Virus record (IMG/VR): IMGVR_UViG_3300009545_000041
Coordinates: 1 to 40,188 of that record
Reading direction: 5' to 3' (one strand)
Source of the DNA: a virus
DNA: 40,188 bases
Positions 21,118 to 25,047 of this stretch are shown in pieces (the stretch's first letter is position 1; each line of letters opens with the position of its first letter). A program made the translations under genes and the position numbers. Below the pieces are notes generated by a model. The model did no database searches and was not told the origin of the DNA. It saw nothing but the letters and a program-made list of their open reading frames with translations.

Positions 21118-22542
21118 TCAGCCGAAGTAACTGCCCTCGAAGTCGGTGGGGACATACAACGGCTGGCCGACCGGACTCGCCATCCGCATGACCTTCTTCT
21201 CCGCGAGCATGAGGTGGCGGCAGGCGTGCACCAATGCGTCAAGACGGTCCGGAGAGTCCTTGGCCGAGGTGAAGTCGTAGTTGACGAGCTGGTCCTCCAG
21301 GAATCGGAAGACCCCCACGTGATGGACCTTGTTCTGCTGGTAGCGCATTGCCACGGGCTCGGCCCTGGTCTTCTTGCCCAGCTTGGAGTCGACGGACTTC
21401 ATCGGCGGGGAGGTCCCCTCCGGAAACAATCCCTGACCGACCAGCTCCATGTAGGCGTCCCGCATGACCTGGGCCATCCAGGCCTTGCCGAGGTTGTTCT
21501 CGTAGATCATGAAGTCGGCGCCGTACTGGGCGACCACATTCCAGCAGTGGAGCGCCGCCGCCCGGCCGGTCATGACGCAGGACTGATCGGCCAGCACGTA
21601 ATGGTGGTTGTCCTTGGTCCGGGCGACTACGACGACACCCATCTCGTCTTCCTCGCCGGTGAGGTTCGGGTCCACGCCGACCACGATGGCCACGATCTCG
21701 TCGGGGCATGAATCCACCCGATTCCGTTCGATGTCCGTGGCGCTGAACAGTGAGTTGTCGAACAGGTCGAGCATTTCGCCGTAGAGCTCCTGGCGACCGA
21801 TGGCGGTTCCCTCGTAGCGGGTCTTCAACTCGTTGACCACGATGGAGCTCAAGTTGGCCGAGTTCTCGAAGGTGCTTCCGCGCACGATGCTGACCGAGCC
21901 GTCCTCGCGCTTGAGCCATTCCCGGATCAGCTCGATCGGCTTCGGGGTGGTGGTGACGAAGCAGCGTGGATGATCACCGTAAAGATCCGCCCGCAGGGAC
22001 GGCATGATGCCGTTGTACCAGGACTCGCGAGGCTTCTTCCACTTGGCGATCTCATCCAGCCAGGCCCCGGATGCGTTATAGCCTCGACCGACGTCCTCGG
22101 AGTCCGCACCCTCGCAGTAGATCTTCGTCCCCTCGGCCATGATGACCATCGGCTTCGGTGACTTGATGTAGCGGTACTTGATCCCCCGTCGGTCGAGCAC
22201 CCTCAGAATCCCGGCCGGTCCCTCCAGGCAGATGAGCCTCGCATCGGACAGTGTCTCCGCGATCACCAGCCATTCCGTCGGAGTTCCGGACTTGTCGAAC
22301 GGATGCAGCTGAGTTCGCTCGACCAGCCACTCCGAGCCGGCCATCGACTTACCCCAGCCACGACCGGCGAGAGCCAGGTGAACCAGCCAATCCCCTTCGG
22401 GCGGAATCTGTTCCGGCCGGGAGGTCCACCACCATTCATTGCGGGCCACCTCCCTCAGCAACCACTCCGGCTGCTCCCTGATCCAGGCGTCACGCACCTC
22501 CTTGGGCTGGAGGGCGAGGCGCTCTTTCAGGGACAACGTCAT
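21118..22542 (-). CDS. terL: Terminase large subunit
   Basis: A 474-residue packaging motor and nuclease, start MTLSLKERL at 22542. Walker A is GRGWGKS at residues 60-66, Walker B WLDE at 161-164, coupling motif TTTPKP at about 197-202. The nuclease domain starts near VVGVDPN (about 288-293). A TACGAT box lies seven bases before the ATG, so the mRNA may be leaderless; an upstream in-frame ATG (MKNRITPGG) has no ribosome site. No small terminase is found next to it on this strand. Confidence 0.93.
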   Translation of the reverse strand: MTLSLKERLALQPKEVRDAWIREQPEWLLREVARNEWWWTSRPEQIPPEGDWLVHLALAGRGWGKSMAGSEWLVERTQLHPFDKSGTPTEWLVIAETLSDARLICLEGPAGILRVLDRRGIKYRYIKSPKPMVIMAEGTKIYCEGADSEDVGRGYNASGAWLDEIAKWKKPRESWYNGIMPSLRADLYGDHPRCFVTTTPKPIELIREWLKREDGSVSIVRGSTFENSANLSSIVVNELKTRYEGTAIGRQELYGEMLDLFDNSLFSATDIERNRVDSCPDEIVAIVVGVDPNLTGEEDEMGVVVVARTKDNHHYVLADQSCVMTGRAAALHCWNVVAQYGADFMIYENNLGKAWMAQVMRDAYMELVGQGLFPEGTSPPMKSVDSKLGKKTRAEPVAMRYQQNKVHHVGVFRFLEDQLVNYDFTSAKDSPDRLDALVHACRHLMLAEKKVMRMASPVGQPLYVPTDFEGSYFG

Positions 22543-22603: not shown

Positions 22604-23041
22604 ATGTCAGCCGAGGCGCCCTGGATAACTTCCCCTCGTGCTGTGTTCAACCCCCTGGCAAGCCGGGCCGTCATCCAGATCAAGGGCTCTGGACCGGTCA
22701 CACGGCAGCCGGGGGGTTTCAAGGCCGTCTGCGCCCGAAATCGGAGGCAAACTCCGACTATCAGACAAGAGCGGCTGCCGGGGAAGACACGGATCGACCT
22801 GAAGGACCTGGAAGTGCTGATGCAGGGTCTAGACAGTCCTCGGAGTACCTGTCCGAGGCCTCTCCTCCAGGAAGTGATGTGCTGGCAGTGGTCGGTGGGG
22901 CAGATCCATCGACGGCCGCAAGGCGGTAACGCACGTGAAAGGGTCGCCCGGCAGGTATGCATGCCTGACCGGTTAACGCCCGCGAGTAGCGGTGACACTG
23001 GCCTTGGCGCCCACGGCATCACCAGTGGGGGCTCGTCGTGA
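22604..23041 (+). CDS. Possible leaderless protein of unknown function
   Basis: A 145-codon frame starting MSAEAPWITSPRAVF six bases after a good -10 box. It has no ribosome site, as expected for a leaderless mRNA. Third codon positions are GC-rich in parts (for example the stretch coding TRIDLKDLEVLMQGLD), which supports coding, but the last 11 bases overlap a tRNA-like gene and no family is recognised. It could instead be an untranslated structured leader. Confidence 0.35.
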   Translation: MSAEAPWITSPRAVFNPLASRAVIQIKGSGPVTRQPGGFKAVCARNRRQTPTIRQERLPGKTRIDLKDLEVLMQGLDSPRSTCPRPLLQEVMCWQWSVGQIHRRPQGGNARERVARQVCMPDRLTPASSGDTGLGAHGITSGGSS

Positions 23042-23150
23042 CCGAGTGGCTTAAGGTGACTGGCCTAGCGCGGGACCTTGCGCGGAAGCCGGTGGAGGTA
23101 AGGCAGAGGCCCGGCCTTATCTTCCGTGGGTTCGAATCCCACCGATGAAC
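23032..23150 (+). tRNA. Class II (Ser-type) tRNA-like gene with expanded anticodon loop
   Basis: Acceptor strands 23032-23038 and 23143-23149 pair at six of seven positions (C1.A72 mismatch). The D arm ACC-GAGTGGCTTAA-GGT is Ser-like, the T arm GTGGG-TTCGAAT-CCCAC is perfect, and there is an unusually long variable arm of about 32 bases. The anticodon stem ACTGGC/GCCGGT closes a 23-base loop instead of 7; the extra bases contain a GCGC...GCGC hairpin. No Ser anticodon remains by simple removal of the insert, so decoding ability is doubtful. Confidence 0.55.
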
Positions 23151-23330
23151 AACGCCGTCTAGCTAGCGGCGCCAGATGGTGGACTCGCCTAGTGATCGGA
23201 CGAGAATGAAGCCATCGATGGTTGTGCCCAGTGGTCACCTGGGCCGTGATGCGCTACCGGATAGGGTCCGGGGAGGGCGTCCTGTTGTCCAACGACCACG
23301 GGAACCTGGAGCAGAGCCAGGGCATCGCAC
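23151..23330 (+). other. Structured non-coding stretch, function unknown
   Basis: About 180 bases without a supported gene. It contains a hairpin at its start (CGCCG...CGGCG around 23153-23171), a D-arm-like CTCG-loop-CGAG element near 23183-23203, and a hairpin GCCCAG-loop-CTGGGC near 23227-23245. No T arm is associated with the D-like arm, so no tRNA is called. Confidence 0.4.
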
Positions 23331-23480
23331 GCATGAGGTCTGGTGCGACAGGTTCGGATGCTTCTCCTGTCAATAGGGTGGTTGCGGGTTCGAGTCCCGT
23401 CCCTATGGCCAAAAGCCTGTGGGTAGCTCAACCGGCAGAGCACCCTGTTCCCGAGCCGACCTTGATCTCAGACCTCATGC
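23331..23480 (+). ncRNA. Circularly permuted tRNA-like element in an inverted repeat
   Basis: The outer ends GCATGAGGTCTG (23331-23342) and CAGACCTCATGC (23469-23480) are exact reverse complements; one more G.T pair extends the helix. Inside, a tRNA 3' half comes first (TAGGG, TGGTT, T arm GCGGG-TTCGAGT-CCCGT, CCCTATG, then GCCA) and a 5' half follows (CTGTGGG, TA, D arm GCTC-GAGC, A, CCCTG, TT). The anticodon stem CCCTG/TAGGG forms only between the two halves in permuted order. The acceptor strands pair at just four of seven positions, which is the main weakness. A hairpin GACAGG/CCTGTC precedes the 3' half. Confidence 0.5.
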
Positions 23481-23486
23481 AGCTTG

Positions 23487-23577
23487 GCCCCCGTAGCTCA
23501 ATTCGGCAGAGCAACGGCAGGTGAGGGCGCCCCTTGGTCCTGACCGTGTGTTGGCGGTTCAAATCCGCCCGGGGGCC
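23487..23577 (+). tRNA. Lys-type tRNA body with a rod-like anticodon arm
   Basis: Acceptor GCCCCCG/CGGGGGC (7 of 7), D arm GCTC/GAGC, T arm GGCGG-TTCAAAT-CCGCC and variable GTGTT are all normal and resemble phage tRNA-Lys. The anticodon stem ACGG/CCGT continues into CAGG/CCTG and AGGG/CCCT, so the normal 7-base loop is replaced by 24 bases. No anticodon can be assigned. It may be an intron-like insertion or a deliberately non-decoding tRNA mimic. Confidence 0.65.
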
Positions 23578-23669
23578 CGATGCACCACCCGGAGTTGATC
23601 GCTTCGGGGACGGGCACCCTGATCGACGCCACGGTGCTGGCAGGGATTGAATCCCGGGGGGTCCACCAA

Positions 23670-23781
23670 GGGTCGGTAACTCAATTGGCAGAGTCCTCGC
23701 CCACCTGGATCCATGGGACTGCATGGAGGCAAAAGGTGGGAGTCGACCGGGGAGATGGAGGTTCGAATCCTCCCCGGCCCT
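23670..23781 (+). tRNA. tRNA body with a 39-base expansion of the anticodon loop
   Basis: Acceptor GGGTCGG/CCGGCCC pairs fully with one G.T, D arm ACTC/GAGT, T arm GGAGG-TTCGAAT-CCTCC. The anticodon loop region (23701-23746) holds 46 bases, including a 7-bp hairpin CCCACCT (23700-23706)/AGGTGGG (23734-23740) with an inner CCATG/CATGG. Removing the hairpin exactly leaves a 7-base loop AGTCGAC on a 5-bp stem, but without U33. Anticodon not assignable. The frame that crosses it is not a gene. Confidence 0.65.
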
Positions 23782-23878
23782 CGTGAAACGTACCGAAACG
23801 GGCGCCACCTACTAATCAGGGAGAAGAAGGCCCCCTTACTACACCTGTACCTGCAATCCATCTACCACGGGAGGACAG

Positions 23879-24352
23879 ATGCTCGTAGATCTTCCGAGTC
23901 AGGTTTCGGGCTACACCAGCGATCCGATGATGGAGATGCTGGCCCGCATGACGGACGGAAATGCCAAGCCGGAACGCCTCGATCAGGGCGTGTACGTCAC
24001 CCATCTCAACTTCAACCACGAGCTGCGATCGGCTGGCCTGCTGCTGAGCATGTACCCGTTCAGCGCTTGGGAGAGCGACAAGGAGTACGACCCCTCAGCG
24101 CCTGACGATTACGGGGTGTGCGACAACTACCACCAGATCATCGCCAGGTGGTGGGAGCAGCTCAACGTTCCGGACCGGAGGTTCGTCATCTGCCTCACGC
24201 AGATCCGCAAGGACCAGCAGTCACCGGAGGGCGGCTGGCGCTGGCACAAGTGGGGTCCGTACATCGGAACCGGGAAGCCGCAGTGTGAGTACCTGTACGA
24301 CGAGCCCGATATCCAGGAAGTCTTCTGCTTCCACATTCTTGAGCTGAGGTAA
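23879..24352 (+). CDS. Protein of unknown function in the tRNA region
   Basis: A 157-residue protein with a strong GGAGG ribosome site five bases before the ATG. It is Trp and Tyr rich (WRWHKWGPYIG, NYHQIIARWWEQLNVPDRRFV) and ends with EVFCFHILELR. Sequence looks like a globular cytoplasmic domain; no signal peptide or membrane helix. It is followed 14 bases later by a 56-residue gene, so they probably share a transcript. No family is recognised. Confidence 0.75.
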   Translation: MLVDLPSQVSGYTSDPMMEMLARMTDGNAKPERLDQGVYVTHLNFNHELRSAGLLLSMYPFSAWESDKEYDPSAPDDYGVCDNYHQIIARWWEQLNVPDRRFVICLTQIRKDQQSPEGGWRWHKWGPYIGTGKPQCEYLYDEPDIQEVFCFHILELR

Positions 24353-24366
24353 GCAAGAGGAGAGCC

Positions 24367-24537
24367 ATGGACATGATCGAAGAGGACGTCATCAAAACGC
24401 TCGACGAGATGGAAGAGAAAGATCCTGAGGTGGCGCACCATCAGGCCGATGGACTTCTTCTCCAACTGGTTCACCCGGAAGTTCGTGCGGCCTATGAACG
24501 CCTGATTGACAGATGTTCTTGGTGGGCTTCGACCTAG
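24367..24537 (+). CDS. Small acidic helical protein
   Basis: A 56-residue protein, start MDMIEEDVIK, behind GAGGAG. It is predicted to be helical with an acidic N-terminal half and ends in SWWAST. It is packed between the 157-residue gene and the tRNA-Arg, six bases before the tRNA begins. No family is recognised. Confidence 0.65.
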   Translation: MDMIEEDVIKTLDEMEEKDPEVAHHQADGLLLQLVHPEVRAAYERLIDRCSWWAST

Positions 24538-24543
24538 ATCCAA

Positions 24544-24616
24544 CCCGTAGTAGCTCAACGGATAGAGCGGGCTCTTCCTAGGGGCCTTGTTGGGAGTTCG
24601 ACTCTCTCCTACGGGA
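24544..24616 (+). tRNA. tRNA-Arg (CCT)
   Basis: A canonical 73-base tRNA: acceptor CCCGTAG/CTACGGG, D arm GCTC/GAGC, anticodon stem GGCTC/GGGCC, loop TTCCTAG with anticodon CCT at 24577-24579 (reads AGG), variable TTGTT, T arm GGGAG-TTCGACT-CTCTC. No CCA is encoded; A73 is followed by CG. AGG is a rare Arg codon in GC-rich hosts, so it may support phage genes. Confidence 0.93.
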
Positions 24617-24621
24617 CGCAA

Positions 24622-24784
24622 GGGGACGTAGCTCAGTTGGATAGAGCATGGGACCTCTCACTGAAACGGGGTTATCGACCGTGACTGCCTCTAGCTGGAT
24701 GTTTAGGCCACTACGCAGGACGCACGCCGAAAGGCTTCAGGTGGGAGCATCCACGGGTCGGCTGTTCGAATCAGCCCGTCTCCA
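24622..24784 (+). tRNA. tRNA body with an 88-base insertion in the anticodon loop
   Basis: Acceptor GGGGACG/CGTCTCC (one G.T), D arm GCTC/GAGC, T arm GGCTG-TTCGAAT-CAGCC; the body resembles phage tRNA-Met or -Ile. Between TGGGA and TCCA lie about 95 bases closed by CTCTCAC (24655-24661)/GTGGGAG (24741-24747). Inside are hairpins ACGG/CCGT, GCCT/AGGC and a GCC-GAAA-GGC tetraloop. Too small for a group I intron. Anticodon not assignable. It ends two bases before tRNA-His. Confidence 0.65.
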
Positions 24785-24786
24785 CG

Positions 24787-24858
24787 GTGGCTATGGCTCA
24801 ACGGTTAGAGCGCTGGCCTGTGGTGCCAGAGATCCGGGTTCGATTCCCGGTAGTCACA
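24787..24858 (+). tRNA. tRNA-His (GTG)
   Basis: A canonical tRNA: acceptor GTGGCTA/TAGTCAC, D arm GCTC/GAGC, anticodon stem CTGGC/GCCAG, loop CTGTGGT with anticodon GTG at 24820-24822, T arm CCGGG-TTCGATT-CCCGG. A G at 24786 could serve as the extra G-1 of tRNA-His. A73 is followed by CG and no CCA is encoded. Confidence 0.93.
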
Positions 24859-24890
24859 CGTCAGGTCTAGTCAACCTGTCCGGTCCAGCA

Positions 24891-24911
24891 TGTGAGTCTG
24901 ACTAACTCACA
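24891..24911 (+). other. Isolated anticodon-arm-like hairpin
   Basis: TGTGAGT (24891-24897) and ACTCACA (24905-24911) form a perfect 7-bp stem with a 7-base loop CTGACTA, which has U at the second position and GAC where an anticodon would be. No acceptor, D or T arm was found around it. The rest of 24859-24982 holds no other recognisable element. Confidence 0.4.
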
Positions 24912-24982
24912 ACGCCAAGGAACGCCGTCATGGGCGCATCGGTATCCCGAATGTGGGTCAGCCGGATGAGACGCGGACGGAA

Positions 24983-25047
24983 GCGGCTGTAACTCAGTAG
25001 AAGAGTCCCGGATACCGGAGTCGGGGGTGCGAATCCTCCCAGCCGCA
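24983..25047 (+). tRNA. tRNA-like gene with a shrunken anticodon arm
   Basis: Acceptor GCGGCTG/CAGCCGC pairs fully; D stem ACTC/GAGT with a short 7-base loop lacking GG; T stem GGGGG/CCTCC with loop TGCGAAT. Only 15 bases separate position 26 from the T stem instead of about 22. They fold as CCGG-ATA-CCGG, a 4-bp stem with 3-base loop, so no normal anticodon exists. Probably non-decoding or decayed. Confidence 0.55.

Follow-up and report, generated by a model that had tools for sequence, protein, structure and literature searches.

tRNA bodies with rebuilt anticodon arms in an actinobacteriophage-like virus as probable scaffolds for structured RNAs

The IMG/VR virus fragment IMGVR_UViG_3300009545_000041 (40,188 bp; "the window" below means this whole stretch) carries an array of tRNA genes at 23032-25047, five of whose members, here called elements 1 to 5, have abnormal anticodon arms. 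These elements are, in our judgment with somewhat better than even probability, non-decoding structured RNAs scaffolded on a tRNA, in which a cargo has taken the place of the anticodon arm or has grown out of it, or the arm has been shortened. Here, the retained acceptor stem, D arm and T arm would presumably allow the RNA to be cut, CCA-tailed and stabilised as a tRNA is. The cargo, a separate RNA domain standing where the anticodon arm was replaced or enlarged, would presumably bind a protein or an RNA during infection. The body, then, probably directs maturation and protects the RNA, while the arm probably contacts the partner. We infer that such RNAs are transcribed, that they are processed in the manner of tRNAs, and that they have a target.

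What sequence comparison displays directly is a set of intact bodies, the same cargo in different bodies, and no consistent anticodon. Conservation and covariation of the cargo appear in two families from cultured phages and, more thinly, in elements 3 and 4 of the window. The same reading may be extended to elements 1, 2 and 5 by analogy only.

The departure from a normal tRNA is easily measured by the length of the anticodon region, counted from nucleotide 26 to the T stem, which is normally 22-23 nt. It is 40, 62 and 112 nt in elements 2, 3 and 4, reproducing the expansions of +17, +39 and +88 given by a first-pass annotation made from the letters alone. These three have a 7-bp acceptor stem, a D arm, and a T arm with a TTCRA loop; element 1 is weaker in these respects, and the T loop of element 5 reads TGCGA. 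None of the five has the 5-bp anticodon stem, 7-nt loop and U33 of a decoding tRNA. The claim of five tRNA bodies with abnormal anticodon arms therefore stands for elements 2 to 5, including the 4-bp/3-nt arm of element 5. For element 1, the 23-nt loop (+16), which contains a CGCG hairpin, was confirmed, but not the good arms: its acceptor stem pairs at 6/7 positions and its D stem at 3/4 (T 5/5), and it has no Rfam match, even at E<=10.

The extra bases had also been said to fold into hairpins of their own. In silico, they do. The added 17 nt give element 2 a single long hairpin, and the arm of element 3 pairs as an outer CCCACCT/AGGTGGG and an inner TCCATG/CATGGA. The fold is clearly better than that of shuffled sequences, however, only for elements 2 and 3 (z -2.35 and -1.93; elements 1 and 4 both give z of about -0.87).

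The first-pass annotation proposed comparing homologous loci, and for element 3 this was informative. A separate assembly, about 80% identical (L003/L022), holds an orthologue (L022:8392-8504, minus strand) that keeps 33/33 pairs. Seven substitutions fall at paired positions and all preserve pairing, among them a T-A to C-G double change within the insert. Random placement of the substitutions retains all pairs in 1-2% of trials (P about 0.01-0.02). Element 4 has GACGCACGCCGAAAGGCTYCAG of its insert in common with the insert of a tRNA body that is perfect in all else; this body lies in contig L070, whose terminase is about 65% identical. The longest exact match is 18 nt, against a maximum of 11 in 5000 shuffles. 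Across viral contigs, the element 4 motif was found in 24 stretches, of which only that in L070's contig lies in a tRNA context; the others are apparently chance.

Stronger covariation comes from cultured Streptomyces phages of cluster BE, which carry two comparable families of expanded bodies, mostly unannotated. In Jay2Jay, a Streptomyces phage that served as a control for the body search, there is one of each, both unannotated. Family A (at 87949-88074 in the Jay2Jay record) has matches in 70 Streptomyces phage records. Covariation is seen in the acceptor and T stems of 15 representatives, whose core beside the outer hairpin is near-invariant; in two of them another hairpin replaces the outer one. 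In an alignment fitted in part by structures derived by eye, as were the alignments generally, 98.9% of cells are paired, and 34 cells are double changes, against 11.7 in shuffles (0/500). By eye, the core seems to contain two GAA/AGUA strand pairs resembling loop-E motifs. The core was also found in 92 stretches of viral contigs; those within a tRNA body seem to belong to this one Streptomyces phage family. Family A elements also occur in Sushi23 (87224-87350) and Mildred21 (85973-86079), loci L150 and L158, one annotated as tRNA-Thr and the other as tRNA-Tyr; elsewhere, the element is unannotated or part of an ORF.

Family B (Jay2Jay 100926-101062) bears most directly on the use of a scaffold. 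In its insert, 8/20 pairs are changed on both sides (covariation 0.450 vs 0.208, 0/500). Its hairpins occupy at least three different tRNA bodies, with acceptor strands GCCTGCG, GGGCCCA or GCCGGGG and with differing D stems. Relative to Jay2Jay, identity of the body drops to 26-33 of about 64 columns, while identity of the insert holds at 43-46 of 57-58. All six viral contigs carrying the motif (6/6) have it inside a tRNA body. These comparisons support the use of a tRNA as scaffold, and it is chiefly through them that, of the proposals in the first-pass annotation, carriers of hairpins is the best supported.

How often do such bodies arise? A search that left the anticodon region unconstrained (acceptor at least 6/7, D at least 3/4, T 5/5 with TTCRA) gave 128 matches in 875 kb, mostly ordinary tRNAs; one shuffle yielded 2. 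At a score of at least 45, there were 0 matches in 8 shuffles of 0.86 Mb (6.9 Mb in total), while the window alone has 3 abnormal bodies at 48-49. At a score of at least 44, 17 abnormal bodies were counted, in the window and in L022, L023, L033, L044, L048, L053 and L070. This count follows exclusion by hand of ordinary tRNAs whose D or anticodon pairing is atypical (L028 13706, L066 18468 and 19811, several in L144), and leaves out long-range pairings of low score (41-43). Abnormal anticodon arms are thus not private to the window, but occur in other viral contigs related by terminase, with acceptor, D and T arms intact. The trailers 3' of the discriminator base start with C in nearly all cases, as in normal tRNAs. 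Large arrays in relatives or other phages, such as those of L028/L066 and of mycobacteriophage Phabba, are canonical almost throughout. Three further tRNA-like elements were seen: L022 8227-8299 (minus), with a 4-bp arm and a 4-nt loop; L003 7388-7455 (reverse-complemented), resembling a tRNA without a D arm; and L053 6817-6913 (minus), whose extra hairpin is in the D loop, not in the anticodon arm.

The array also contains an RNA absent from the element list of the first-pass annotation. By its sequence and predicted fold, 23331-23480 is a Y RNA, a tRNA mimic. Its 12-bp closing stem (23331-23342/23469-23480) encloses a permuted tRNA-like core of T arm, acceptor-like stem and D arm. Both the permuted module and the long closing (putative Ro-binding) stem of YrlA are therefore present, although the Rfam score is below gathering. 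It folds far better than shuffles (z -4.36), and its acceptor-like stem covaries (alignment A5). A permuted-tRNA gene at 23374-23449 was dropped in favour of the Y RNA.

Close matches to this Y RNA are found in Phabba, in terminase relatives, and in a 164,602-bp relative that is probably Myrna; phage Y RNAs were seen also at L022 8664-8766 (minus) and in contigs of L031, L033, L034, L037, L044, L046, L063 and L066. TROVE (Ro60) genes, previously reported in jumbo phages, as are RO60-like proteins in mycobacteriophages (PMC7824862, PMC12363180), occur in 12/33 records searched. In relatives, Ro60/rsr adjoins, or shares a genome with, homologous Y RNAs. In the contigs examined, the Y RNA is usually on the strand of the TROVE gene and directly upstream of it; Phabba and Jay2Jay show a wider gap between them. 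The window and the L022 fragment have the Y RNA, and no TROVE gene was found in either fragment, that of the window being 40 kb.

Other explanations must, of course, be weighed. The first-pass annotation had suggested small introns, excised from the anticodon loop by some unknown activity, and this now seems very improbable. If introns were being removed, orthologues should recover one anticodon. Predicted excision failed to restore the same one in element 3 and in families A and B: the anticodons implied by ARAGORN are TCG for element 3 in the window and CGC in L003, and across 15 family A orthologues they are GCT, GCG, GGT, GTG, GCA, TCT and GAA, with one orthologue having none. The family A insert, 72-78 nt, leaves no anticodon stem at all. 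A covariance-model search, which had been proposed as a check, was run with Rfam and gave tRNA matches for elements 2, 4 and 5, and no intron family; no group I or II intron was matched at E<=10 (window) or E<=5 (a second Rfam search). No bulge-helix-bulge was seen by eye on the folds of the arms inspected, and a search of 18 records gave no RtcB gene, although the host could supply a ligase. It is the changing anticodons together with the missing intron signatures that make introns unlikely. The appearance of the family B insert in different tRNA bodies is, of course, also what a mobile intron would give; ARAGORN can draw introns; and two annotators did name family A tRNA-Thr or tRNA-Tyr.

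A more ordinary explanation is turnover. Phage tRNA genes come and go quickly, and these might be genes losing function, anticodon arm first. The counterpart of element 5 in L003 does have a normal-size arm (the positional counterpart at L022 7662-7734, minus, is a tRNA with anticodon TCA, UGA), and the abnormal set varies between contigs. We nevertheless consider decay unlikely overall, and it is already hard to hold where element 3 or either of the two Streptomyces families is concerned. The abnormal bodies are paired at least as well as normal tRNAs. Indeed, 8/17 abnormal bodies are perfectly paired, against 10/56 canonical bodies in the same contigs (Fisher p = 0.02), a comparison that is descriptive because the counts were chosen after inspection. 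The inserts, further, carry compensatory changes, and conservation extends over 70 phage records. The earlier remark that simple decay is not the obvious explanation agrees with these findings.

Alternatively, the elements may be decoys, tRNA mimics that do not decode but absorb or resist a host defence enzyme. Bait for anticodon nucleases, as first proposed, is weakened because the structure that those enzymes read is the part that is missing. The enzyme would have to read the body, the acceptor or the CCA end; a decoy for something of that kind is possible, if improbable. It would suit the retention of tRNA body and 3' trailer while the anticodon is dispensed with. A role against tRNA-targeting defences is known or proposed for phage tRNAs (PMC10264068, PMC11555353), and there are effectors that cleave the tail (PMC12851939). 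It would leave the conserved, covarying cargo unexplained. Doubtful in a higher degree is the idea that a phage Ro60-Y RNA particle has the elements as its clients or partners. The Y RNA does lie within the array of the window, relatives have TROVE genes with a Y RNA just upstream, and in Jay2Jay, Ro and a Y RNA occur together with both expanded families. Yet L023, L053 and L070 (55-57 kb) have several abnormal bodies each with no TROVE match or strong Y RNA, making a direct link weak, and no Ro-binding motif was seen by eye in the inserts.

Several observations weigh against tRNA-scaffolded RNAs as well. Conservation in elements 3 and 4 rests on two sequences each, and most inserts in the window lineage are not common to different phages. 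No orthologue with the same arm was found for elements 1, 2 and 5, which could therefore be by-products of fast tRNA turnover. Some members are only shortened, not expanded, and a cargo does not explain these. The shuffle control for pair counts, finally, ignores relatedness.

Known systems offer partial likenesses. The tmRNA (ssrA) also joins a tRNA-like acceptor and T end to a large RNA domain at the place of the anticodon arm; the elements here, however, have a normal D arm, are 65-163 nt long, and occur several per phage. The window has no tmRNA match by Rfam covariance or ARAGORN, and no resume ORF was identified. The bacterial Y RNA/YrlA (RF02553), with a true example in this very array, likewise mimics a tRNA and has a long stem where the anticodon stem would be. 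Y RNA, however, is circularly permuted with a closed acceptor, whereas in elements 1-5 the order is that of a normal tRNA and the acceptor end is open. In engineered tRNA scaffolds, a cargo RNA gains stability by being set in the anticodon arm of a tRNA body. The elements here share this arrangement, but are natural, with the cargo under selection. Phage tRNAs that evade anticodon nucleases likewise have an anticodon loop departing from that of the host, but theirs is an altered loop that still decodes; the main text of that report does not mention insertions or introns (PMC10264068). No description of elements such as these was found in the open-access literature searched.

One detail of element 4 concerns charging. 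Its acceptor carries G3-U70 and A73, which constitute alanine identity. Charging without an anticodon is therefore conceivable, and element 4 might be charged; this is offered as an observation only.

Table 1. Features of the tRNA array of the window.
Feature	Coordinates	Strand	Evidence
Element 1: weak type-II tRNA-like body, long variable arm	23032..23150	+	Body finder score 42; ARAGORN -i
Y RNA (YrlA-like)	23331..23480	+	RF02553 34.5 bits (gathering 69); model R2, of which it is a training sequence, 107.7 bits
Element 2: tRNA body (7/7, 4/4, 5/5)	23487..23577	+	RF00005 47.7 bits; body score 49
Spacer, near-identical in L003 3' of the element 3 orthologue	23583..23669	+	blastn alignment to L003
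Element 3: tRNA body, anticodon arm +39 nt	23670..23781	+	Custom tRNA model R1 (built from tRNAs of related phages) 48.5 bits; free-anticodon body search
tRNA-Arg(CCT), normal	24544..24616	+	ARAGORN; RF00005 51.5 bits; L003 identity 88/89 nt
Element 4: tRNA body, anticodon-arm insert of about 88 nt	24622..24784	+	RF00005 37.2 bits; body score 48
Conserved motif GACGCACGCCGAAAGGCTTCAG within element 4 insert	24719..24740	+	21/22 nt common with L070:6377-6535(-) insert
tRNA-His(GTG), normal	24787..24858	+	ARAGORN; RF00005 71.1 bits
Element 5: tRNA body, anticodon arm 4 bp/3 nt	24983..25047	+	RF00005 46.3 bits

The array is flanked by a leftward terminase gene (21118-22542, Pfam Terminase_6N) and by rightward genes. 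Its Arg(CCT) and His(GTG) members are normal tRNAs, as had been stated. The spacer folds at the level of shuffles (z 0.06). That the array region is an assembly artefact is unlikely, because element 3, the Y RNA and the Arg tRNA recur in the separate assembly L003/L022. The virus is actinobacteriophage-like as judged by its portal protein, which is about 33% identical to those of Actinoplanes, Microbacterium and Arthrobacter phages. A terminase-based host search across species genomes found no relative, and the similarity of the array DNA to cultured phages is limited to tRNA and Y RNA fragments and short, chance-like matches. A non-coding block at 22720-22923, about 83% identical to L003, is apparently structured and has no Rfam match. 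The ORF at 26029-27981 matches an exonuclease family plus LAGLIDADG and Hint-like domains, suggesting an intein.

Arrays of tRNA genes in phages are currently counted, and read, as aids to translation or as insurance against nucleases. If some of their members are non-decoding scaffolds, then tRNA counts and analyses of codon compensation would be affected. Some annotated phage tRNAs are probably RNAs of a different kind that do not take part in translation, because several tRNA bodies here bear an unrelated hairpin at the place of the codon-reading arm, and well-studied Streptomyces viruses carry conserved RNAs built in the same way. The broader proposal, which we hold at even odds, is that a class of tRNA chimeras exists in actinobacterial phages, where the body is scaffold and maturation signal, and the anticodon arm holds an exchangeable, conserved effector RNA; such chimeras would have escaped notice, or been listed as tRNAs with arbitrary anticodons. 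If this is true, a new set of phage RNAs is available for testing, and since the Streptomyces families sit in cultured phages, they are directly testable.

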